64,000 bases of DNA from Symmetrospora coprosmae (lineage: Eukaryota > Basidiomycota > Cystobasidiomycetes > Symmetrosporaceae), in assembly GCA_008802785.1 (NCBI GenBank), contig VUYT01000015.1, forward strand, positions 1 to 64,000. The letters are read 5' to 3'. The notes beneath the pieces are model-generated. The model did no database searches, was not told the DNA's origin, and was given only the letters and a program-made list of their open reading frames with translations. The translations under genes and the position numbers were made by a program. How positions within the stretch are numbered: position 1 is the first letter of the stretch; each line of letters opens with the position of its first letter. Shown here piece by piece: positions 3,586 to 64,000 of this stretch.

Positions 3586-5092
3586 CTAACCAGGCGGCAG
3601 CATGCCAGCGTCGACACCCGCGAGCTCCTCCTCTGCCGGCTCGTCGTCTGCCATGCCAGTCCAGGGCGACTGGATGGGTGCGCGGGGCATGACCATTGTA
3701 CCCGTCCGGGCCGCCTCGAGGATGCCGTACGGCCTGACGAGCTTCAGGAAAGCGTCAATGCGTGCCGTCTTCCCGCTGAGCTCGACAATAACGCAGTCGT
3801 TCGACACGTCGACGATGCGCCCTCCAAACTGCTTGGCGAGGTTGTCGACGCCAGAGAGGTGCAGGTGCTTCTGGCGCAGCGCCTCGGACGGCGTCAGGCT
3901 CTGCCGGGGCGGGGTGGGCGTTGTTCCAGGGAACAAGGTGCCGGGGTGCGCGGCGTGCGCTGCCTCCTCCGTCGCGCGCGCGCTCTGGTCCGCCGGCGAG
4001 CCCGGCTGCAAGGGGGCAGGGTGGTGCACCTCGTCCTCACTCACGGGGTGGTCGCCCTGGTGGCTCAGCGCCTCGGCCATGCGGGCCTCCTCGATCTTGC
4101 CCGCGAGCTGATCCTCAAAGTACTCGGGTCCGAGAATCGAGACCTTGCAGAGCAGCAGCTCGCGCTCGATGGTGCGGGTGCGGGTGTAGTCCAGCACGGC
4201 CCAGACGGGGACCTGCAGTCGGCAGAGACACACTCAGCTCTGTGCGCGGAGATTGCGCCTCGCTAAACCTTGGAAGCAGTCACTCACCAGATCCTCGAGC
4301 TGCCTTCGTGCCTGCTCGACAACGCCGTCCTGTCCCCTGAGGACGATGCACATCCTGGACAGATCCTTGACCTCGGTTGTGCAGACTACGAGCGAGTCAA
4401 TGCTGTGAGGTGTGATACGGAGCGGACAGCGGAGATTAGCCTCCGCTTGTGCGGGACGAAAAGAGAGGGCGGAGAAGCGAAGCACGCACTTGAAGCCACG
4501 GGCGGCGAGCGTGCCGGAGACCCTCGAGAGGACACCAGGCTCATTCTGCACGAGGCAGTTGAGCACGCGTCGGCTGTAGGGCTGGTTGGAGGGAGGTGGG
4601 GCTGCATGCAGGGCGGAGACGGAGCTGGGTGTCAGTATAGCTGCACCTGCAGCGGGGTCGCGCATCGATACTCACTGTTGCTGGCGACGACGAAGAAGAT
4701 TGTGGACATGGTATGACGATGGTCAGCCGTTGCTCCTGCAGTCTGTCGCCCATCACAAGCCAATGCACGCACTAGAGAATGTTGGTAACGGCGTACTCTG
4801 CCGACCACTTGGGAGGGTCAATCTCTGGCAAGGAAGGCGGTCTCGGGCGTGGGTGCTGGAGCTTGAAGTCGAGCGCGGACGTGGACGATGCTGTCCCCTT
4901 TGGTGGGTGAGGTGGTGCTTTGTTGCTGTTGCCGCTGCTGCTAGTGCCTCCTGCAGCGCTCCCTCCGGATGCACCGGCGGACGAGCGAGCCGCAGCGCTG
5001 CCCGTGGAAAAGAGTCGCGCAGCGGCATACGAAGAGCCGCGACGCAGACCACTAGAAGCGACGAGCGTCGTCGACAACCTCGAGAGCTGCAT
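3586..5092 (-). CDS. ilv6: Acetolactate synthase regulatory (small) subunit, mitochondrial
   Basis: Minus-strand exons 5092-4773, 4680-4676, 4601-4490, 4402-4288 and 4212-3586 give 392 residues. The product is the valine-sensitive regulatory subunit of acetohydroxyacid synthase, which starts Ile, Val and Leu synthesis in mitochondria. The first 60 residues are Ser/Ala/Arg-rich like a transit peptide. The ACT domain carries LNCLVQNEPGVLSRVSGTL, NIDSLVVCTTEV and LSRMCIVLRGQDGV; the C-terminal domain has VPVWAVLDYT and FGGRIVDVSNDCVIVELSGK. A low-complexity insert (His, Pro, Ala, Glu) separates the two parts. The conserved YNTPPPSNQPYS junction only reads through if a 5-base exon (4676-4680) is used; see findings. 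It is divergent from the WD40 gene at 5630. Confidence 0.95.
4676..4680 (-). other. ilv6: Five-base microexon of ilv6
   Basis: On the minus strand the bases CAACA are flanked by TCGCCAG upstream and GTGAGTATCG downstream. The preceding exon ends in TA and the next begins CC, so the join TA+CAACA+CC gives Tyr-Asn-Thr, as in the conserved ILYETP/ILYNTP segment of fungal Ilv6. Skipping it shifts the frame. Confidence 0.8.
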
Positions 5093-17846: not shown

Positions 17847-19822
17847 CTAGCAGCCAAGCGCAATTCCGCTGCCTTGTTGGCCCGGGGAACGATGGCTGCT
17901 TTCCGGGAGGGCTGAGGAGCAACCTGAACCGGACGTGTCCATGTCGCTAGCCCGCTCGTCCGGACGTGTCCGTGTCGCTAGCCCGCTCGTAGGCCTGCTA
18001 CTTGCGGGCGACACCTGCGACACGGCTGACGGAGACCGCGGCAGGGGCGCTCGAACGCGCGAGGAGGTGCTGCTACCGACATCTACCGTGCTCATGCTCG
18101 CCGTAGACGTCCGGGAGTGGCCTATGGCGGGTGTGGCACGCTCGCTTGTCGCGATGACATTGGGCCCCGTCCCGCGCCGCAAGAGACTCGCTTTGTTGAC
18201 GCGAGGAGCCATACTTGGCGTTTGTAGACTTGCCAGGCTTGAGCGCCGGGAATGACCCGCTATTGCATTTTCACTGGTGGCACGGCTGGATGAGCCAGAC
18301 AGCGAGCCGAAGAGCGCAGCTCGCTCGGCTGTTGTGTAGCTCTGCCGGCGCACACTTGAAGTCGGCAGAGGGGGAAGGCCTCTCTGTGAGGTCCGGAGGG
18401 AGTAAGCCTTTGTCTCCTTCGGCACGATGGACTGCGACCGCAACCTTATCAGCTGGAGTTGCTGCACATGTTTAGCTAAATAGCGGACTCACCGGAGCCG
18501 CGACTGTGCTCTGCACACTCAGCCTCCGTCCACCAAACCCTGGCTGCCCCTCGAAGCCCTGACTCCGCTCTGACGTGTTTGAGCTCTGGCGACGCACCGT
18601 AGCTGGCCGGAGTGTCCCCACTTTGTCCGTGCTTTCGCTCGACCCTCCTTCCAGCCGCGCGATGCTGGCTTTCGTTTGACGCGGCGCTACCGTCGGCTGC
18701 AGCAGTGATCGGACAGTCATCGAGCCCGTCTTCCGTCCGATGGAGACCGGGTCTTCGCGGGTGACCGTCCCAGTCGGATTGGTCACTGCCTGCTGATGCG
18801 CCTCTCGGTTGTGCACCTCCGCATCTGCGCTCCGACCCCGTCGCAAAGCCGCAGCTTTCGTGAGCCGTGGCGTGATGGAAGGGGCCGAGGTCGTCCCCGG
18901 CAGCGCCCGCGCTCGAAATGGGACCGTAGTGGTCTTTTCAGGCGCATCGATGCGGTCCGACGTGCCCGATGTAGTACTCGTGCCGGACGTCCGCCTTGTG
19001 CCGGTCGACGACTGACGGCTCTCTGCGACGTTCGAAGCAGCAACGACCTTGCCGATGTGGGGGAGCGGCGAAGCGATAACATTGTTGCCTTCAACATCGT
19101 CCTCGTCTGGGCATGCAGTCCTTTCGACATTCTCGTGCTTGTCTGGCGGCGCGCAAGATGCAGCGCTATCAAACGTAAAGACCCGCTTTTCCGTTGCCGG
19201 ACTGCGCAGAACCACAGGCTCCGGGTCTTCTGAAGGGAACAACATGGCGATAGCCTCATGCGAGTCTGTCGTAGCGAAGGTGCTGCCGTCGAAGGGGGGG
19301 GAGAGCCTGTGCATTACCGCATGTCAGCACGTTCGGGGCTGCGGCAATCATCCAGTAGCGTCCACCCACTGCAGCGCAGTGCCCTCCTGACGCGCAAAGA
19401 GTTTTGACAGTCTCTCCGAGAGCTGCAGGGTAGAAGTGGGTTGGTAAGACGTGTTTAGCGGTGACATCGGGCCCCGAGGCTCAAAAGTGGCCATACTGCC
19501 CAGACTCACAAGCTCCGCAGTGGACTTTTCATCGTCGTCCTCCTCAGCATCTCCAATCAGAGCAACCCATGCAGGCGCAGTTGCACTGTTGATGCGTGGT
19601 CAGCTCATATCTGCCCGCCCGCCTTTTGCCCTCTTGTGCTGCTGCGACGCACCTCGTGACCGCGACGACCTGGGCGAGTTCCGGGCCGACACCTCGGTCT
19701 AGGAGGCGCTCCTGTATGACAGCCAGACCATGCTGCTGCTCCAGATGCTGCTTTACTTCGCGCTTGACTGCTGTATCGAGGCTGCTTGAGCCAGTGCAGA
19801 GCAGGAGACACTGGGCGCGCAC
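17847..19822 (-). CDS. Unknown Ser/Thr/Arg-rich protein with three PRxxKAxxxR motifs
   Basis: I do not recognise this gene. Coding character is clear over about 2 kb on the minus strand: a conserved-looking N-terminal part (around 19822-19660, with LEQQHGLAVIQERLLDRG), then exons containing APAWVALIGDAEEDDDEKS, LSERLSKLFARQEGTALQW and a long disordered region 19300-17847. The disordered part carries three copies of a motif of the form (S/T)xxPRxxKAxxxR: SITPRLTKAAALRRG near 18830-18880, TVAPRQTKASIARLEG near 18645-18695 and SMAPRVNKASLLRRG near 18168-18222. The true start codon is not resolved: upstream of 19822 the first codon in frame is GTG and an upstream exon is likely. The C-terminal tail is altered by a 31-base tandem duplication. 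Role unknown. Confidence 0.5.
17931..17992. repeat. 31-base tandem duplication
   Basis: Two copies begin GGACGTGTCC at 17931 and 17962 and share the core TGTCGCTAGCCCGCTCGT, with one internal mismatch. The period is 31, not a multiple of three, so the same bases are read in two frames inside the C-terminus of the unknown gene (RASDMDTS versus LATRTRPDE). Confidence 0.85.
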
Positions 19823-20103
19823 GACTGTTGTGTCGCGAGGCTCGCCACAGGGAAGGGGGGAAGGGGGACCCAGTCTGAATGACGCGCAGAGCGCAGACGG
19901 GTCGAGGCACGCTGCTGAGGGTCAGACGGTGCGACTCAAGCACAATTGCAGTATGCGCTAGATATGGGCGGTTGTGCGAACGTATGAAGGCGCCCAGAGC
20001 CGCCCAAAGCCCAAACCGCACGCGCCATCTCCGCAACTTCGCGCGCCCAAAGCCTGCTCAAAACAAGTCTGCATTACGACAGTGCGAAAGTAGCGAAAAG
20101 AGG

Positions 20104-22522
20104 CTACACCGACGTGGGCTCTGTTGGCTCGTACAGGTCCGTAACTGCGCCGTGCGATGCGTCCGAGACCAGCCGGATGTACTTCCACAGCGTGCCTGAT
20201 GACGAAATGCATCGGTGTTAGAGCCCGCAGAGGCTTAGAGACACATGCACGAACTCACCCTGCGTGACCTTAGGCGGTCTCGGCGTCCACGTCTTCTTGC
20301 GCTCGGCAAGCTCCTCGGGGCTAACATCCACGTCGAGCGTGTTCTTGACGGCGTCGATAGTGATTATGTCTCCATCCCTGATGAGGCCGATCGGTCCGCC
20401 CTCAGCAGCTTCTGGCACGACGTGGCCGATGCAGAAGCCGTGCGTGCCGCCAGAGAAGCGGCCGTCGGTCAGGCACGCGACATCGTTGCCGAGGCCAGCG
20501 CCCATGACGAGCGAGGTCGGCTTGAGCATCTCTGGCATGCCCGGTCCACCCTTGGGGCCCAGGTACCGCAGGACAATGACCGTCTTCTCGCCCGTCTTGA
20601 TCTCGTTGTTCTCAATTGCACTGACGAGGTCAACCTCCGCCTCAAAGACGCGCGCCTTGCCCTGAAAGTAGGTTCCTTCCTTGCCTGTGATCTTGGCCAC
20701 GGCGCCTCCCGGCGCGAGCGACCCTCGCAGGATGCGCAGATGCCCTGTCGACTTGATCGGGTTCGACAGCGGCCGCAGGACATCCTGGTCCGCGGGAAGA
20801 GACGGTGCCTTCTCGAGGTTCTCGGCCAGTGTCTTGCCCGTGACGGTCATGGTGGATCCGTCAATCAAGCCGTTTTCGTGCAGGTACTTCATGACGGCTT
20901 CAAAGCGTATGGGCGACGTAGTCAGCTTCCGCCGAGTTTCGGTACAGGCGAAATGATATTATGCATCGGGATGACCCACCAGGAATGCCTCCGATTCGGT
21001 GCACGTCCTTGAAGACATACTTGCCGGACGGCTTCAAGTCGGCCAAGAGGGGAATGCGGTCGGACACGCTCTGGAAGTCGTCGATGGTGAGCTTGATGCC
21101 AACGCTGTGGGCGATAGCGATCAGGTGAAGGACGGCGTTGGTGCTTCCGCCCAGAATCATGATGAGGACCATGGCGTTCTCGAAAGCCACACGCGTCATG
21201 ATGTCGCGTGGCTTAATGTCCTTCTCAAGGAGTATCTGCATCGCCGCTCCAATCCCATCGCATTCTTGCGTCTTCTCCGGGCTTTCTGCCGGGAAGGACG
21301 ACGAGCCTGGCAGAGTCATGCCGAGCGCTTCTGCTGCCGAAGCCATTGTGTTTGCCGTGTACATGCCTGTGCGAGGAGGACAGCATTGCGGATCAGCAGT
21401 GGGACCGTCAATGTCCACGCGGCACTATCAGACACTCACCTCCGCACGCCCCCGGCCCTGGGCAAGCATTGCGGACGGTGTCGTACCGCTTCTTCTCCGC
21501 CTCCTCCGTCTTGCCCTCCTGCAGGTACTGCCCATAGCTCTGGAATGCCGAGACAATGTCGAGCTGCGGCTGTCCAGCGCAGCTACCTGGCCGGATCGTG
21601 CCTCCGTATACCATCAGTCCCGGCCGGTTGAGTCGACCAAGCGCCATGAGCGTTCCAGGCATGTTTTTCTGTGTGTGCGATTGGAACGCGCTGTGTCAGC
21701 TTTGGCAGCCACGCAGGCAGAGACCGCGTGTGCGCCGATTGCTCACATCGCATCCAGGCACCACGACAACACCGTCTAACCAGTGTCCTCCAGCGACTGA
21801 CTCGACAGAGTCCGCAATGAGATCACGGCTCTGCAGCGAGTACGACATGCCGAAGGTACCCATCGAAATGCCGTCCGACACGGCGGGTGTGCCAAACTGG
21901 TACCCGGTCAGGTTGGCTTTCCGGATCGAGCGCGTTATCCGCTGGCCCATTCCGAGGAGGTGGCCATTGCATGGGTTGCCCTCGTACCTGCAGCGTCGAA
22001 CACAACGACCCGAGTCGAGCGTGACAAAGAGTAAGTGGCGACTTTCTGGGACGACAGCTGGCTCTGCGCCATGCGGGCGGAGGACACTCACCAAACGCTC
22101 GCCACGCCAATCATTGGCTTCTCGAGGTCCGAGTCCTTCTCAATGCCCTCTGTCGCGTACAGCATTGCCTGTTTGTCGGAGCAGCAACGTCGTGCAGCGT
22201 CATACCGGCCGAGTGAGCGGGCGGCCAATCCAGGTGAAGTCGATTCGAGCGTTCGCACGTCAGCGTACACATCACACACGCCCAACCAAGCGACAGCGAG
22301 ATGACAACGTACCTGTGACGCGCCCTGGTCCTTTGGCTTTGTGATGTTCCTGCTGTACTTGTTCAGCCCGGTGTGGCCCGACGAGCCGCCGGCAGCGGCG
22401 GAGGTAGAAAATTGTCCACATCCGAGGGCGCGGTAGACTGAGCAGCCGCCGCAGCGCGGTCCTGCAGGAGTGTTGCCGCTCGACATTGTTCGTGCGAGGT
22501 TGGCTGCAGAGGCGCGGAGCAT
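20104..22522 (-). CDS. ilv3: Dihydroxy-acid dehydratase, mitochondrial
   Basis: Seven exons (22522-22313, 22168-22092, 21987-21747, 21668-21440, 21366-20980, 20897-20259, 20195-20104) sum to 624 residues. It dehydrates dihydroxy-isovalerate and dihydroxy-methylvalerate, the third step of Val/Leu/Ile synthesis, in mitochondria with an Fe-S cluster. The start [12 protein letters not shown] looks like a transit peptide. Cluster ligands are visible in YEGNPCN, VVVPGCDKNMPG and [17 protein letters not shown]. Further blocks are [37 protein letters not shown] and the terminal [18 protein letters not shown]. Upstream in-frame sequence exists to 22666 but begins with GTG, so the ATG at 22522 is preferred. 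The promoter side faces the 3' end of mdm38, 302 bases away. Confidence 0.96.
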
Positions 22523-26018: not shown

Positions 26019-29000
26019 TCATAGCTCGACGAGCTCGACCCGCGAGTTTTCGCTGGCAATCTTGTCGAGGTACTCCTCGAGGAACGCCATTGCCTTGTCG
26101 GCCTTGTCCATCTTGCCCTCGACCGCCCGGCGGTCCTTCTCGCTCGCCTCGAGCGCAGCGCGGAACCGCTCCCGGAGGTCCCATCCGGCCATTCGCATCA
26201 CCTTGCGCGTCTCGCCTGCGATGCGCTCGCTCTCGACTGCGCTGAACTCGGCAGACACGAGCTGCGCGTGCAGCTTGCGCCCAATGTTGGCGGGGATGGC
26301 CCGGGGGAGATCGTGAATGATGTATGCGCCAAGTGCGAGAGCTGAAGCGGGTAGACAGCAATGAGCATCATGTTCAATCTAGAAAAGGAAGGGGGAGACT
26401 GGACTCACTCATGACTCCAGCGATCGGACCCGCCCATTTCCTGGCCGCCCGCGAGCCGAGCAGCTCGCACAAGCTCGTAATGGCTTCGATCACGCTCTTG
26501 ACGCCGACGACGCGCGTGCCAAACATGGTGATGGCACCTACCCCAAGGCTCGCCATGGACAGCGCAGAGCCCGCTTCGACCAGCGCCTTGCTGCCGATGT
26601 CGCCAGCCAGGGTGCTCTTTGGCGACATGAGCATGGAAGATCGGCCGAGGCGAAGAAGGCGGTCCATGTCGAGCAGGTCAAGGAACGACAGCTCGATCTC
26701 GCTCGTGGCTGCCGAGAACTTGACCAGCTGCCGCTCGGCCTCCGTCAGTGCAGAGGCGGAATGCTGGCTGCGCTTGCGCTTCTCGAGCGCCTGCCGCCTC
26801 TTGCTGAACATTGCCTTGTGGTTGAATATGCGCTGAGGCAGGGCAGACGCTGCGCCGGCTCCTGCTGTTGCGGTGCCTGCCGATGCGGACGGTCCAGCAC
26901 TGCTGGGAGCGGCGGCCGGCAGGAATTGCTTAGCGAGATCGCCAGTGACAGTCTCGACACCCTTGATCGTCTGCTGCTTGGCTTCCTCCTCGGCTGCCCA
27001 AATCTCGCACTCGACATGTTCGACCAAGCTTGCCTTGATCTCGCCCATCCAGTCCCACAAGCCAAGAACGCCCGGATACTCGGGCGTCTGCACTTTGCTG
27101 CCGATCGATGCGACCTGCTCGACGGCATTCTGCAGTAATTTCTTTGCGCTCGAACGGACGTGATCGAATGTCTCCTCTTCTTCCTTGCCCACAGCCTCCT
27201 CGACCAGCTCGCGCTCCTTGACGAGCTTCTCGTGCAACGGCTTGACCTGTGCCAAGCGGATCTCTGCCTCGTCAAATTCGCGTGCAGCGTGGATGAGGTT
27301 CTCCTCCGCGACGATTGAGAGGTCCGACAGGAGATTGAGTAGATAGTGCTTTGCGGGCGTGAGCTTGCTGATGCTCCGCTTGAGCAGCAAGAACGAGCGC
27401 AGGCTCTCCTCGAGGTGGACAAAGGCCGTGTCCTCGGCAGTCTCCTCGCCAATGGTTGCTTTGGCAATCTCGTCAATCACGTTGGCCGCCTCGACAAAGT
27501 GAACGAGCTCTTCGCGATTCTCCCACGTCTTTGGCGAGACCTTCTTGATCTGCTCGAGAATGTTCTTGCGCGCCTTCTCCTTGTTCCGCAGCGTCTCGAA
27601 CTTGTTCACGACGATGAAGATGTAGGCCTTCTCCATGCCCGCCGTGAAGAGGAAGTTCTTGCCGCTCTCGGTAAGGTACTCGGTGGCCGTCGCGACAAAG
27701 ACGACAACGTCGATCTCGGACTGGCGGGCAAACACAGCCGTCGTCTTGAGACTGTCGATGTTTAGCCCAGGCCCGTCTATGAGCGAGATGGACACGATAC
27801 CGTTCCGGATGAATGACTTGTTCGTCTTGGCCTCCTGCTCGGCAGGGATGGTGTGTTCGACGACGGCTTCGACGGTCGACGAGATGGGCGCACGACTGTC
27901 CTCGAGGTACACTTTGACGATGCCAAATCGCTGCTCCTCGTCCGTAGCAATCTCCTCCAGCTTGTCGAGGCCGAATCGCTCAAACGTCTCGCTCGAGGTA
28001 CGCTCGTACTTGGACAGGTTCTTTGCCAGGATGGCATGCACCTCCTCCTTGCCCTCATTGTGCGCCTGTGCATCGAGGACCTCACAGAAGACGGTTGTGA
28101 GGGGCTGCTGATCGGTGGGGAGGATGTCTCGGCGCAAGAGCGCGTTGACAAACGTCGATTTGCCGGCGTTGACGTCGCCGGTAACGAGAATGCGGGACTG
28201 ATTGTCCTTGACCCGTGCCTGGAGCGACGAGAGCTGTGACGAGGCGTGCTCGAATCGCTTGCTGAGCAGGCCAGCGATGGTGGCGTGCGACATGGACTCC
28301 ATCAAGTTGGCTGTCGCCGTCTGCCCGGGCGCACCGAGGCGGAGGTCGATGGCGAGCGGGTGGGAAGTCGATGCGGTTGCAGGTCCTGACGAGCTTGATG
28401 ATACGTGAGCACTGTGTGTGGGCGTCATCGTGCTGAAAGCCCGCTGGTGCTGCTTTGGGCGCATAGGGGTGGTGGGCGCGGAGGCTGGTCCGGCGGCAGC
28501 CTCGTCGCCGAAGAGACTGGCGGACCTGCGCAGGTCTCGCACGCCAGGCGCATGGAAAGCTGCCGCTGTGCTCTTTGTGCCCTCCCTCGTGTCGACAAAG
28601 CCGAGCTTGGTGGACGGGTAATGCATGGACCACTTTGAATCGTTGAAGCCGGAAAGGGAGGAAACAAACGCGGTGGTGTTCTCGATGGAGGACAGGAGTC
28701 TGCAGCGTGCGCATCGGATCCACAGCAAGCAAGCAAGCGACTGTCAGTCCCATTGTTTCTTCCTCTCTGTCGCAGCGTGTCGCTGGATGCTCGCGAATTC
28801 AGCCGGCCCTGCCCGGCGAGCGAGGGGCAGCGGCGCCTTGGAATCGCCTGAAGGGGGTGGGCTACACTCACGCATCCCGCTTGTATGCAAACTCGACAGC
28901 AGCCCCTTCGTGCTTGTTGCTGGTCGACGATGCCGCGTCGCTCATCGCTGTTGATGCACGACGGTTGCTGGTCGCTATCGCGGTCTCTGCCTCTGCCTCT

Positions 29001-35348: not shown

Positions 35349-37335
35349 CTAGGTCATTGACCAGATCTGCAGGCGCGAGGCTGAGGACTTGGCGGCGATG
35401 ACGTTATTTTCTTGACGCGGAGCTCCCTGAGTAACCGTTGGTATCTCGAGGTTGACTGGCACGACACTGCCAGCACTCGAGCCGTCCAACCCGCCTTCGC
35501 TCGACTGAGAGCTGGAGGAGCTGTCGTCGTCACTCTCGCCGCTTCCCGACGAACTCTCGTCCGAAGAAGATGCAAAGTTATTTTGGCGAGCACGGATCCG
35601 GCGAGACCCTGATGTTGTGAGCAGATACGGCAGGAAGGGATGCAGTGTCGCGGAGCTGATTGTGTCTGCAGAGTGGAGTCAGGTCAAATGGGGCCTGCCC
35701 GCAGTTTCAAAGGGCCGTCCCACCCTCACCATTGGCAAGCTTGTACGACTGGACTGCCTCGCTGCCTTCTGGGTCCAGCGTATCGAAGAAGTGTACAGTC
35801 CCGCTCTGATGGAGGCAGAGTGTCAGCCACGCCTGTCAGGATCACTGCAGACGAGTTTCTGCGCACCGTGTCGCCGGTCACGAGCCATTTGCCTGCTGCA
35901 TCGATATCAAACTGGATCCGCTGGTTTGTATTGCCCTTCCTGGCATGCTCGAGTACGACGCTATTGGTATTACGAACGTCCCACACGAGAATCGAGTTCG
36001 AGCACCGCGAGGTCGTGTACAGCAGCTCTGGGGCGGTCGGGTGGAATTTGACCTGCGTCACGCCCGACCCGCCCACATCGTGGTGCTTGCTCTTGAGCGA
36101 CCGAATCATGCGCGGCTCGCCGCCCGACGCGTCGTACAGGCAGATGCTGCGCGAGTACGAGCCGGCGGCCATGAGTCCGTCGTGCTCGGGCGATAGGGCA
36201 ATCGTAGAGATCATGCCTACAGCGACCGGACCGAGTCAGATTACGCTCCTGTACACCCAGTTGGACCCAGCTACCTCTTAGCAGCCTCACCTTTCTGGCC
36301 CTGCTTGCTGTTTCGCGATGGAGAGAGCTTGAAGCGGCGTCCGGTGCTGCCAGGATCGGCCACATTGAAGCATTCGATGGCGCTCTCAAAGCCACAGTAT
36401 AGCCTGTGCGATCGATATCAGCCAGCCAGATCAGCTGTGTGCTTTGAAGAGCACGACCGGACGCACTTCGTCCCGTCGAGGGAGAACTGCAGGCTCTGCG
36501 GCCCGATGAATCGCTCCTGATGATCGATGATGCTGTACGATGCGCGGATCTGCGAAGGGACCGCCTTGGCATCATACCTGCGAGTAATGACGATACGCGA
36601 GCCGTACCTTGCCAGTATTGCCGTCAACGAAGGCGACCGGAACGTCCCGGACGCTCCGCACAAAGCAGAACGTTTCTGGCCGATAAACGGACGCGAACGG
36701 GAACCATTCAATGCCCAGCAGAGCAGCTGGAGACTGGTCGGATGATAGGTAGGGTTGCAGTAGTGCGGGTTCGTCTATGCAAAAGGCGTCAGCTCGTCCG
36801 GCAGGTCGAGCTGGCATGGATGTAAGCGCCAGCTCACTCGAGCCTTGATCTGCAGGGACTTGCGCAGCGCTTTGAGGTACAACATTAGCCGCTAGATGCT
36901 CATTCAGCGAGGGTCTGCGCACGTCCTTGGTCCCGGGCAAGACTCGCTCACAATGGGAAGATCTTTGTCCGTCGGTCCTCCTCGTGCGTCAGAACGCATG
37001 AACCGTCTGGGCACCTACGGGTGTGGAAAGGGCAAGCAAGGGAGACGACTCTTCAGTGAGCGATGTCCCATGTACCGCATCTCATCGCTTACGCACCACT
37101 TTGCGCCTCTGAAGAAGTTGTCTGGCCGAGAAGAGGTGTCGGCGCCGGCGTAGGCGAGCTTGGCTGGAGGAGCAGCGAAAGAGAGTGCATAAGGGGTAGA
37201 TGCATCCGGTCCGAGTATTCCGGTCACAGTTTCTGCCGTGTCTTCCGTAGGAGCTGTCACGTTGCCCATGTCGGCCGTACCATCGGCTGCGGCTTCGTCC
37301 GCAGTGGGAGCGAGCTGTCCATCGAAGCTGTCCAT
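35349..37335 (-). CDS. WRAP53/TCAB1 (Swt21)-like WD40 protein
   Basis: Nine exons (37335-37097, 37014-36952, 36914-36838, 36774-36608, 36549-36467, 36403-36291, 36216-35867, 35805-35730, 35665-35349) sum to 494 residues. The order of motifs follows WRAP53: FFRGAKWCPDGSCVLTHEED, then IEWFPFASVYRPETFCFVRS, RDVPVAFVDGNTGKIRASY, SLQFSLDGTKLYCGFESAIE, GMISTIALSPEHDGLMAAGS, VTQVKFHPTAPELLYTTSRC, ILVWDVRN, NTNQRIQFDIDAAGKWLVTG, GTVHFFDTLD and TISSATLHPFLPYLLTTSGS. Human TCAB1 binds the CAB box of scaRNAs and telomerase RNA; yeast Swt21 has been linked to splicing. Which role holds here is unknown. An acidic Ser/Asp/Glu stretch precedes the last strand LQIWSMT. An ATG further upstream in the same frame is unlikely to be used. 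Confidence 0.88.
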
Positions 37336-56166: not shown

Positions 56167-59100
56167 TTAATGTTCGAACCGAGACGAGCCGCGCTTGCTA
56201 GCGTGTCTGCTCCGCTTGATCTGCTCCTTGTGCAGCTTGAGACACCGTGTGTTGTTGAGGGAAGCGACAAAGCCTGGCTGGCAGCTAAGCACCACACATT
56301 GCCCAGCAGAGCATCCGACGCCTGCCGAGTGCTTGATCTTTGTGCAGTCCTGTCCCTCTCCGGTCGACGCGCACCCTCCGCAGGATTCAATGGCGGTGGA
56401 GGTGTCCATGCATTCGAAGCCTCCCGCGGTGGACGCAAAGTCGAGCGACTTGTGTAGCGAGCCAGTGAAGGCGTCGAAGCTGGCAGATCCGGCGATAGGG
56501 CAGGCGGTCTCGCCGGTCGGGCAGAGTGCGAACGATTTTTGCGACCGCTTCTTCGTCCGAGCCTTGGCGGAGGGAGTGAGTGTGCAGCTCTTCTGGTCCG
56601 CTGAGGCAGTGTAGCCGGCAGCACAGGTGATCAGGCAAGCACCGCTTCTGCAGGTGCCCGATATGACACCCGTCCCGGAAGTCGTGCACTTGTTGCCGGT
56701 CGAACCACAGTTGTTGACATCGCTTGAGGTGGCAACGCATCGCTTATTGTCAGCGGAAGGAGAGTAGCCAGATTGGCAGGTGAGCTGGCAAGAACCGTTC
56801 CTGCAGCTTCCCGACGAAACACCAGTGCCGGAAGTCGTGCAGACATTGCCAATGGCACCACAGCTGAGAGCAGAAGAACAAGTCAGCGGGGCTCATACCA
56901 TATGCAAATCTGCAAATATACTCACTTGTTGTTGTCCGTTGCGAAGGGGTTGTAACATTGGTAGTTGACACAGACGAGGCCCTGGTCACAGGTATTGTCG
57001 TCTCCGTAGGGCGTGATCCCGATACCGCAGATTGACCCAGCTGGAAGACCGTTGTTGTTGGACGAAGTTGTGAAGCAGCTGCCGCTGTAGCAACCCGAGT
57101 TCGGGAGGCCGGTCTTGGCCTGGCAGTCTGCATTTGAGGAACAGCCGTAGCGCGTGCACTGGCCGAAGGAGTAGACGGAACCGTCCTTGCAGATGCTGTT
57201 GCAGCTCAGGTTGTCCGAGGATGCAGTGTACCCTGCGGCACAGGAGATACGGCAAGAGCCGGCGACACAGCTTCCAGAATTGACGCCGGTGCCGGAGGTA
57301 GTGCACTGGTTGCCCAGGCTACCGCAGTTGTTGACATCGCTGGAGGTTGCTACGCAGCTCTTGTTATCGGGAGACGCTGTGTAGCCGCTCTGGCAGGTCA
57401 GACGGCACGAGCCGGTGACGCAGCTGCCGGACTGGACGCCGGTGCCGGACGTTGTGCACCGATTGCCGATGGTACCACAGTTATTGACATCGCTCGCCGT
57501 GGCAACGCAGCTCTTGTTGTCGGCCGAAGGGGTGTAGCCGCTGTTACAGGTGATACGGCACGAGCCAGTAATGCAGCTGCCGGACTGGACGCCAGTACCG
57601 GAGGTCGTGCACCTGTTGCCAAGCGTACCACAGTTGTTGATATCGTTTGAAGTAGCAACGCAGCTCTTGTTATCTGCTGCGGCGGTATATCCAGGTGCGC
57701 AAGTGATCTGGCAGGCACTGTTCGTGCAAGTGCCCGAGACGACGCCAGTACCCGATGTGGTGCACTGGTTACCGATGGTACCGCAGTTGTTGACATCAGT
57801 TGTAGTCGCAACACAGCTCTTCTTGTCGGCGGAGGCAGTGTAACCGCTCTGGCAGGTGAGGCGGCACGAGCCGGTGACACAGCTGCCGGATTGGACACCG
57901 GTGCCGGACGTTGTGCACTTGTTGCCGACAGTGCCACAGTTGTTGACGTCGGTAGATGTGGCAACGCAGCTCTTGTTATCGGCCGATGGTGAGTAGCCGG
58001 AGGCGCAGTTAAGCTGGCAGCTACCGTTGACACATGATCCCGACGAAACTCCCGTGCCGGAAGTGGTGCACGCATTTCCGAAGGTGCCGCAGCTGCAGGC
58101 GAAGTTCTGCTCAGCATTTGCCATCAATCCACAAACACCAACCGTTACACTCACTTGGAATTGTCATTCGTGAAGCGGTTCTGGCACTTGTAGTCGAGGC
58201 ACACTAGACCAGTGGCACAGAGATTGTCGTCACCCGATCCAACACCTTCAGCACCGACTCCGCATGAAGAGCCAAGGGGGCGACCGGCGGCGTCTGTTCC
58301 GCGGGATTTGGTCTCAGTATATATAGCACAAGGCGAGCAGGAAAGACTGATGCTCACTGCTGGAACCGGTGTAGCAGGTGCTGTACTGGCAGGTAGCGCT
58401 GGCGACACCAGTCTTCGCGGCACAGTCTGAGTTTGTTGCGCAGGCGTCTGTGAAATACAGGCGGGTCAGCTGAAATCCAAGATTTCGCATATCCGACGCA
58501 CTCACATCGAACACATTTGCCAGCGTTAAAGTAGGTACCGTCCTTGCATTGGGCCGAGCAGCTGAGGTTATCGGCTGAAGCAGTGTAGCCAGCAGCGCAG
58601 ACGATCCTGCAGCCGCCGGCCACACAGGAACCGGAAGTGACACCGGTTCCGGACGTTGTGCACTGGTTACCGAGCGAGCCGCAGTTGTTGACGTCGGTCG
58701 ACGTTGCTACACAGCTCTTATTGTCGGGTGACGCTGTGTAGCCGCTCTGGCAGGTCAAGCGGCACGAGCCGGTGACGCAGCTGCCGGACTGAACACCGGT
58801 GCCGGATGTCGTACACTGGTTCCCGAGCGTACCACAGTTGTTGACATCGGTCGAGGTAGCGACACAGCTCTTGTTGTCGGCGGCTGCAGTGTAACCGCTC
58901 TGGCAGGTCAGACGGCACGAGCCGGCGCTGCAGCCACCCGACTGGACGCCGGTACCGGAGGTGGTGCACCTGTTGCCAATAGAGCCGCAGTTGTTCACAT
59001 CGGTCGAGGTTGCTACACAGCTCTTATTGTCGGCAGACGCTGTGTAGCCGCTCTGGCAGGTCAAACGACACGAGCCGGTAACACAGCTGCCGGACTGGAC

Positions 59101-60806
59101 GCCGGTGCCGGATGTCGTACATTGGTTCCCGAGCGTACCACAGTTGTTGACATCGGTCGAGGTAGCGACACAGCTCTTGTTGTCAGCCGCTGCAGTGTAA
59201 CCGCTCTGGCAGGTCAGACGGCATGAGCCGGTGACGCAGCTTCCGGATTGGACGCCGGTGCCGGATGTCGTGCACTGGTTGCCGATGGTGCCGCAGTTGT
59301 TGACGTCCGAAGAAGTGGCCACACAGCTCTTGTTGTCGGCGGCTGCAGTGTAACCGCTCTGGCAGGTGAGACGGCACGAGCCGGTAACACAGCTGCCGGA
59401 CTGGACGCCGGTTCCGGATGTCGTGCACCTGTTGCCGACAGTGCCACAGTTGTTAACGTCTGAGGAAGTGGCCACGCAGCTCTTGTTGTCGGCGGCTGCC
59501 GTGTAACCGCTCTGGCAGGTCAACCGGCACGAGCCGGTCACGCAGCTTCCGGACTGGACGCCAGTGCCGGATGTCGTGCACCTGTTGCCGACAGTGCCAC
59601 AGTTGTTGACGTCGGTCGAGGTAGCGACACAGCTCTTGTTGTCGGCAGAGGCAGTATAGCCCGAGGCGCAAGCGAGCTGGCACGAGCCGTTGACGCAAGA
59701 ACCAGATGAGACGCCCGTGCCGCTGGTAGTGCAAACGTTGCCAGCAGTACCGCAGCTGCAGCAAAGTAAGAAGGGTTCGAGTTCAGTAAACATACGCTGC
59801 AGTTCGCTAGATCAGAAGACCGGCTACTCACTTATTGTTGTCGGAAGCGAAGGGGTTGGTGCACTTGTAGTTGACACAGACGGTACCGGCAGCGCACGAA
59901 TTGTCATCTCCGTTCGGCGAAAGACCGCCGTAACCGCAGTTAGAGCCAGCAGGCAGACCGGCGGTGTTGGAGGATGTAGCGAAACAGACGCTCTGGTAGC
60001 AGGCTGAGTTGGTTAGACCAGTCTGCCTCTGGCAGTCGGCGTTGGTCGAGCAGCCATATCGAGCGCAGACTCCGTTGCTTGCATACGAGCCGTCCTTGCA
60101 TGTGAGAGTGGCCGTGCAGCTCTTGCCATCGGTGGAGCGCGTGTAGCCAGAGGCGCAGGTGAGCTGGCAGGCTGCGTGTGCGCGAGACCCAATACGCTCA
60201 GCTCTGTCAAGACCGCATGGAAGATGGGAACTTACCAGAGTTGGTGCAGGTGCCAGAGGCGACACCAGTTCCAGAAGTCGTGCAGGTGTTACCGAGACGA
60301 CCGCAGTTGTTAACGTCGTTGGTGAGGCTGACACAGTCTTGGCCGTCGGAAGTGAGCGTGTAGCCGCTTGCACAGACACAGTAAGGGCTGCTCCTGCCCG
60401 AGGTCGTCCAGCCATCCTCACAGCCGACCCAGCATGTAGAGCCGGTACAGCCGATAAGTGATCCTACACCGGGCTGGTTCGCATAGCCGTTGTAGCACTG
60501 CTGGTTTCGGGTGGAGGAGCATCTGTTGGGACGAGGTGCCAGCGTCAGCGACAACGTCGGGCTCGGCTTGCCGAAATATCTGACGGCCACCTACTCCCAG
60601 ACACCGTAGTGACGCTTTTGCAGACGGTGATCCCGCTTTGTGGATCGCTTTGCACGCGCGTCCATGGGAATGCCCACGATGAGCTCGTTAGGGTCTGCGC
60701 CAAGGGCGAGGTCGTTGGCATTGGGAAACTCGGCCAGGTCCTGCGCGCCAACGAGAGCAGGCAGCAGGACCGTAGCGAAGAGGGAGATGATGGTCGATGA
60801 CCGCAT
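56167..60806 (-). CDS. PriA-like secreted cysteine-rich protein with nested tandem repeats
   Basis: Eight exons (60806-60595, 60522-60236, 60171-59832, 59755-58506, 58447-58358, 58293-58155, 58092-56926, 56863-56167) sum to 1,393 residues. A signal peptide (MRSSTIISLFATVLLPALVG) is followed by an N-terminal segment with Lys-Arg pairs typical of Kex2 sites. The body is made of about seventeen 51-residue units with six cysteines each (consensus VNNCGTxGNxCTTSGTGVQ, SGSCVTGSCRLTCQSGYTA, DNKSCVAT), in blocks of 1, 8, 6 and 2. Between blocks lies a linker domain with NADCQxKTG, GLPAGSxCG, GDDNxC and VCVNYKCxNPF. The C-terminal domain (CPTGETACPI, GGFECMDTSTAIESCGGC, GQDCTKI) matches the PriA family of basidiomycetes. 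Likely extracellular or cell-wall associated; precise role unknown. Confidence 0.85.
56600..60330 (-). repeat. Nested coding repeat: ~17 units of 153 bases in four blocks
   Basis: Units of 153 bases (51 codons) occur once around 60330-60100, eight times in 59755-58560, six times in 58092-57170 and twice in 56863-56600. The linker domain recurs between blocks, so there is a higher-order repeat. Neighbouring units in the eight-copy block differ mostly at synonymous sites and two are identical in protein sequence, which suggests recent unequal crossing-over or gene conversion. Three introns interrupt the first unit of a block at the same place, before the first Cys. Confidence 0.9.
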
Positions 60807-63594: not shown

Positions 63595-64000
63595 ATGTCT
63601 GCGGGCTACTTCATCTACGCCGGCTTCAAGCCATGTCTCAAGGTGCGCCCTGGGCTTGGCCAGAGCTAGTCTTCGCGCCTCCGTTCCTGAGCAGAGGATC
63701 TCCGGAAGAGACAAGTCGCCCAGTAACTGACTCCCGCTTTCGTACTCGCACAGATGATGCTGACCATAGGTGCGACTTGCGAGCCCTTTCGGAATCTCCC
63801 AAGCTGCCAAGCTGACTGGTGGCGAACTGATACTTCGGCTTAAACTTCCTGCATTAAACAAACACCTACCCCTGACCACTCCTCTGCCTCTCCGATGTCA
63901 TACGCTCTTTCTGGTATCCTATCGACCCGCTCACAGGAGCAGGATATGGCCTGTCGAAGAGCGGACGCTTCCCTCCCGCCGCGTCGAAGGGTCTCTCGCA
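63595..64000 (+). CDS. Auxin-efflux-carrier-type transporter, 5' part only
   Basis: Exons 63595-63642, 63754-63769 (16 bases) and 63937 to the window end join to MSAGYFIYAGFKPCLK, MMLTIG and AGYGLSKSGRFPPAASKGLS. This resembles the first membrane helix of the auxin efflux carrier / Ecm3 family of fungal transporters (pattern: KxxLTxGxGxxLxKxG...P...KGLS). The gene continues beyond the window. The very short second exon is supported by the frame and by the conserved joint. Confidence 0.6.

Follow-up and report, generated by a model that had tools for sequence, protein, structure and literature searches.

Very small exons, though uncommon, occur in plants, animals and fungi, and exons of 2–5 bp in Arabidopsis, Drosophila and humans have been published, together with one of a single nucleotide in Fusarium (PMC12940212). 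The Fusarium exon lies in the CYP621A P450 genes, where that report describes RNA reads from two species and 20 orthologous genes. In Arabidopsis, the APC11 gene also has a single-nucleotide exon, which was tested in protoplasts (PMC4674806). Plant microexons of 15 nt or less are described as conserved and often misannotated, and a 5-nt exon in rice was validated by RT-PCR sequencing (PMC8831610). For basidiomycetes, exons down to 6 bp are reported in the P450 genes of P. chrysosporium, with alternative splicing suggested (PMC1184071), and an 8-nt microexon in P450 genes of this species is quoted in PMC12940212. In Trichoderma virens, inclusion of a microexon in the transcription factor Xlr2 was shown experimentally to be glucose-dependent, and the authors state that filamentous fungi had no functional microexon on record until then (PMC11121469).

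How does the predicted five-base exon CAACA in the ilv6 gene of Symmetrospora coprosmae compare with these? Like the exon in CYP621A, it is a tiny, frame-restoring exon in a conserved protein motif of a fungal gene, it was found by homology, its flanking exons being of incompatible phase, and its two short introns resemble one over-long intron (139 nt in the published case, 171 nt in ilv6). The two differ in length (1 versus 5 nt) and in setting (an ascomycete P450 versus an amino-acid biosynthesis subunit), and RNA and orthologues are described for CYP621A (PMC12940212), the ilv6 exon being predicted from genomic sequence. With APC11 it shares its place in a core cellular gene, the APC11 exon being constitutive, and the successive removal of flanking introns that is proposed below for ilv6 is one of the explanations offered for APC11; the latter, however, is a plant gene studied in protoplasts (PMC4674806). 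The microexons of PMC8831610 are likewise from plants, with conservation and RNA shown. The P. chrysosporium genes are, like ilv6, basidiomycete genes with short introns, but they belong to the P450 family and the shortest exon named is 6 bp (PMC1184071). Xlr2 also has its microexon in a fungal gene, in this case a regulated transcription factor (PMC11121469). Since exons of 1 nt and of 2–5 bp are already in print, the ilv6 exon opens no new kind of biology; it is a good new example of a known one. No description of the ilv6 microexon itself was found in the literature, searched with a coverage mostly outside subscription journals.

The ilv6 gene and its product

The gene lies on the minus strand near one end of the window, by which is meant the whole stretch of 64,000 nt that was analysed (Table 1). 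The minus strand was examined from 6200 to 3600, and the joined exons encode 392 amino acids, from the ATG at 5092 to the stop ending at 3586. The product scores above the cut-offs of two Pfam families, PF22629 (ACT_AHAS_ss; 64.4 bits, cut-off 27) and PF10369 (ALS_ss_C; 65.9 bits, cut-off 23.2), and the solved proteins nearest to it are the regulatory-subunit chains PDB 6wo1_B and 6u9d_C, both of which we take to be yeast Ilv6. Judging from its sequence, the gene is fungal ILV6, encoding the regulatory subunit of acetohydroxyacid synthase, and the N-terminal part of exon 1 is presumably a transit peptide. (Viral contigs were scanned for relatives with 137 residues of the product; six stretches matched the pattern and none was confirmed by tblastn.)

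Table 1. Features of the ilv6 gene, listed in the direction of transcription
Feature	Position	Strand	Basis
Exon 1 (320 nt), ATG to ...TNIL plus TA of Tyr codon	4773..5092	-	gene finder; alignment from residue 67
Intron 1 (92 nt), GTGCGT...CGCCAG	4681..4772	-	gene finder, splice scoring
Branch-point-like GGCTGAC of intron 1, branch A 4723	4722..4728	-	motif scoring
Exon 2 (5 nt), CAACA	4676..4680	-	homology, gene finder, parse ranking, shuffles
Intron 2 (74 nt), GTGAGT...ATGCAG	4602..4675	-	gene finder, splice scoring
Branch-point-like TACTGAC of intron 2, branch A 4632, used AG 30 nt on	4631..4637	-	
Proximal AG in intron 2, 7 nt from branch A 4632; rival single-intron acceptor	4625..4626	-	
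Exon 3 (112 nt), PPPSNQPYSRRVLNCLVQN..., ACT domain begins	4490..4601	-	alignment, Pfam
Intron 3 (87 nt)	4403..4489	-	gene finder; junction aligned gaplessly
Exon 4 (115 nt), most of remaining ACT domain	4288..4402	-	gene finder, Pfam
Intron 4 (75 nt)	4213..4287	-	gene finder; junction aligned gaplessly
Exon 5 (627 nt including stop), rest of protein and C-terminal ALS_ss_C	3586..4212	-	gene finder, Pfam

CAACA (4680-4676 on the minus strand) is preceded by ...TCGTCGCCAG and followed by GTGAGTATCG. Its bases complete a Tyr codon (TA/C), supply an Asn codon (AAC) and start a Thr codon (A/CC), and the spliced product reads ...TNILYNTPPPSNQPYSRRVLNCLVQNEPGVLSRVSG... around the microexon, with the peptide ...NILYNTPPPSNQPYSR across the junction. 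The exon falls within the limit of 15 nt for an internal microexon, and the GT-AG introns on its two sides, 92 and 74 nt long, each have a branch motif. When it is included, residues 67-232 of the product align with residues 25-190 of 6wo1_B over 166 residues with no gap on either side, and NILYNTPPPSNQP in the product stands opposite SIIYETPAPSRQP in the chain at the junction; a segment across the junction reads ILYNTPPPSNQP in the product versus IIYETPAPSRQP in yeast Ilv6. A reading of the sequence alone had proposed that the protein with the exon matches the conserved Ilv6 segment, and this gapless alignment bears it out. The alignment to yeast Ilv6 scores 318.1 bits with the microexon and 304.9 bits for the best rival, a loss of 13 bits, and the best product lacking the exon, made with an intron at 4772-4625, has a six-residue gap exactly at the junction. 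The rest of the open reading frame is intact, and the alignment reaches the C-terminal PPG of yeast Ilv6. Both the gapless alignment and the best protein score among 107 competing parses thus indicate that the exon is needed for the conserved protein sequence.

Gene finding, splice signals and chance

Genes were called with a two-strand gene finder (our own script) that combines a codon model, donor, acceptor and branch matrices and an intron-length prior, and that was trained on the window in six rounds. The intron cost, the length prior (centred near 72 nt) and the branch-point offset were set by hand after a first version had over-called introns. (This first version, in which the cost per intron was too small, gave 512 introns and many tiny false exons and was discarded; in ilv6 it called the microexon but joined it to the AG at 4625, with an extra intron at 4620-4574 after a 4-nt exon.) The trained gene finder predicted 24 genes and 125 introns in the window and called the ilv6 microexon structure exactly, without protein evidence. 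Both of the introns that flank the microexon were kept at all six intron penalties (−5 as trained; −4, −6, −7, −8 and −10 without retraining), and at −10 the gene lost intron 3, which is backed by the yeast alignment. Apart from the microexon, none of the 102 predicted internal exons is as short as 10 nt; the next sizes are 16, 18 and 31 nt. No exon of that shortness came out of the reversed window, which is a weak control because just five introns were called in it; the useful controls are the shuffles and random spans described below.

Other features of the window may be listed here. An 18-nt internal exon, a second candidate microexon, is predicted at 18493-18510 (minus strand) in a gene spanning 18260-22522, and a 16-nt internal exon, likely unreliable, at 63754-63769 (plus strand) in a gene that runs off the window end. 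At 35349-37335 (minus strand), nine exons are predicted to encode a WD40-like protein of 479 amino acids, with telomerase Cajal body protein 1 as its best solved match (7bgb_K, 192 bits); its alignment to that protein over residues 42-397 in one stretch, with small gaps, serves as a partial check on the gene finder. A 763-codon exon with a dynamin-type GTPase domain (PF00350) lies at 26410-28698 (minus strand), and an exon with CPL1-like domains (PF21671) and cysteine-rich EGF-like matches at 58507-59754 (minus strand). High intron density and proteins with CPL1-like domains are usual in basidiomycetes, and both features of the window fit a fungus of that group. Across the 64 kb (1-64000), ARAGORN found no tRNA genes and no Rfam family reached its gathering score.

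Outside ilv6, the predicted introns of the window have a median length of 69 nt (range 52-173, n = 121), and these 121 introns provide the scale on which the two flanking introns can be judged. For intron 1, 66 of them have a donor that scores no higher and 90 a branch motif that scores no higher than GGCTGAC, while the acceptor outscores or equals only 6; for intron 2, 91 donors, 78 branch motifs (compared with TACTGAC) and 52 acceptors score no higher. The donor and acceptor of the microexon had both been called good in the sequence-only reading. This is correct for the donor, with 91 of 121 scoring no higher, but the acceptor, GTCGCCAG followed by the first C of the exon, is among the weakest by the window's own consensus. 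It is nevertheless the first and only AG downstream of the branch motif of intron 1, at a distance of 42 nt, which is long (15 of the 121 predicted introns have at least that distance). In intron 2, splicing has to pass over the AG at 4625, 7 nt from the branch A, in favour of the one 30 nt away. Of the 121 predicted introns, 26 skip an AG that lies 9 nt or less from their best branch motif and 3 use one, in no case at 7 nt or less; these tallies are of predicted introns and, as the branch search started 7 nt away from the G of the AG, are silent on shorter distances. The window-wide skipping of AGs near the branch (26 against 3 used) hints at a minimum branch-to-AG distance, and the branch consensus is near CTGAC.

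Competing structures for ilv6 were scored with leave-out models, from which the gene's own four introns had been dropped. The calls for the other 23 genes were those of the run with these four among its 125 introns, and the matrix of that run was used to choose the branch motifs; the same models served for the comparison with the 121 introns, the shuffles and the random spans. All 107 parses compared were in frame and stop-free between fixed ends; they contained no more than two introns, each 40-220 nt long, with a donor score higher than 1 and an acceptor score higher than −3. When codons and splice signals were combined into a gene score, the microexon parse came first of the 107 with 14.28, followed at 8.04 by a single intron of 148 nt. 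It also came first by alignment score to yeast, with 195 against 174 for the next parse, this BLOSUM protein score, here and in the shuffles, being based on one yeast segment of 97 residues only. With the outer sites fixed, no other parse with two introns has an inner exon of 1-60 nt.

How easily would such an exon arise by chance? The interior was dinucleotide-shuffled 5000 times while the outer donor and acceptor were kept. Of the 5000 shuffles, 4229 contained a small exon (1-60 nt) that was in frame and free of stops, and 897 contained one of 5 nt. The observed gene score was reached in 1 shuffle, the observed alignment score to yeast Ilv6 in 98, and both in one parse in none. Among 20,000 random spans of 171 nt, taken from both strands whether coding or not, 72 had an AG-N(1-12)-GT pair whose splice signals were as good, and in 28 of these 72 there was a pair of exactly 5 nt. 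A 5-nt exon alone is therefore cheap by chance, but not one with these signals and this protein. An origin by tandem duplication was also considered, and no direct or inverted repeats of at least 12 nt were present in 4560-4820.

Other readings of the junction

Most departures from the microexon structure would end the protein early. If intron 1 is retained, alone or with intron 2, a TAG follows at once after ATT CTC and the product stops at 106 amino acids; retention of intron 2 gives a stop at 122 amino acids, and inclusion of the microexon with use of the proximal AG (4625) a stop at 158. The sequence-only reading held that the frame is lost without the exon. This is so when the exon is skipped to the acceptor at 4602, with a stop after 126 amino acids, and only then, since skipping to the AG at 4625 gives a product of 398 amino acids, open to the normal stop, with six added residues. 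The latter product corresponds to a single intron of 148 nt (4772-4625) that uses the proximal AG, with YSVSALHAAPPPS in place of YNTPPPS and no microexon at all. Such an intron is in frame and stop-free, one splicing event would be enough to remove it, and it ranks second of the 107 parses by gene score and by protein score alike. However, it is 6.2 natural-log units worse in the leave-out scoring, and it pays for its simplicity with the six-residue gap and the 13 bits lost against yeast Ilv6. Only one good branch motif is available to it, 7 nt from its AG, and none of the 121 other predicted introns splices at that distance; it would also be long, with only 4 of the 121 longer. Although it keeps the ACT domain in frame, the single intron is clearly a poorer model than the microexon, and we consider it highly improbable.

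Inclusion might also be incomplete, so that both isoforms exist and sizeable skipping, to the distal AG or to 4625, tunes the amount of Ilv6. This possibility, which overlaps with the preferred reading, seems quite unlikely, even though the upstream acceptor is weak and its branch-to-AG distance long. Because 5 nt is not a multiple of three, skipping to the distal AG gives a premature stop, which would lie ahead of introns 3 and 4, and a microexon switch is known in fungi from the report on Xlr2 (PMC11121469). On the other hand, nothing noticed in scoring the splice sites and reading frames marks the exon as regulated, and while five of the six computed mis-splicings stop early, the same is expected in many genes. 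In its strongest form, the exon would be a regulated gate on the amount of Ilv6: with a weak acceptor and a long branch-to-AG distance, a variable fraction of transcripts would skip it and end at the 126-codon stop or encode the 398-residue variant. We find this very unlikely. If true, the variant would have an altered linker just before the ACT domain, and valine feedback on acetohydroxyacid synthase could be set by splicing. It is scarcely credible, finally, that a broken gene or an indel in the assembly lies behind the structure, with a microexon that mends the frame by coincidence. All that the sequence offers in favour of this is that the stretch in which the frame is rescued is short; against it stand the intact remainder of the open reading frame, aligned to the C-terminal PPG of yeast Ilv6, the complete canonical signals in both introns, and the 5000 shuffles, none of which did as well on both scores.

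Two related arrangements were considered and set aside. In a stwintron, one intron sits inside a splice element of another and no exonic base is left between the two; here, donor, branch motif and acceptor are present separately for each of the two introns, and five bases are needed in the mRNA for the frame. A recursive-splicing ratchet point is an AG followed directly by GT, a zero-length exon inside a large intron; in ilv6, five exonic bases separate the AG and the GT, and the whole span is 171 nt.

Recognition of the exon and its significance

The internal exon of five bases proposed in the sequence-only reading has thus found support in homology, splice-site scoring, shuffles and the gene finder, and the gene very probably holds a five-base exon between two ordinary short introns. 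The splice signals, the reading frame and the homology were all obtained by computation; from them we infer the inclusion of the exon in the mRNA, the mode of its recognition and the order of events. It is highly likely that exon 2 of ILV6 is 5 nt long and belongs to the normal mRNA, with each intron recognised by intron definition, so that the length of the exon is no limit. The donor, branch point and acceptor of each flanking intron would pair across that short intron, and with such pairing the exon could be of any length. The sequence-only reading had presented the exon as a test of exon definition. This framing is off, since the flanking introns (92 and 74 nt, against a median of 69 nt) are of ordinary size and intron definition is their natural mode of recognition. 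Intron definition was reportedly described in S. pombe by Romfo et al. in 2000. In a review of the subject, the sites pair across short introns, efficiency is set by the length of the intron and not of the exon, and intron definition may be secured even where exons cannot be defined (PMC8624252).

The two introns are most likely taken out one after the other. Across an exon of 5 nt, U2AF at the first acceptor and U1 at the second donor would occupy overlapping positions, which makes stepwise removal likely. Intron 2 may go first, an order that its better donor and acceptor would fit. For a 9-nt exon in potato invertase, the second intron is reported to be removed first (as told in PMC4674806).

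What does a five-base exon mean for the gene and its host? It means a very small coding exon in a metabolic gene that is conserved, in a fungus rich in introns. Annotation pipelines may well overlook it or substitute the in-frame single intron of 148 nt, an error that would place six false residues beside the ACT domain; misannotation of tiny exons is described in both PMC12940212 and PMC8831610. With one weak AG 5 nt ahead of a good donor and another AG that lies 7 nt from a branch point and has to be skipped, the two acceptors also offer a compact natural test of how introns are defined, how an AG is chosen and in what order splicing proceeds.
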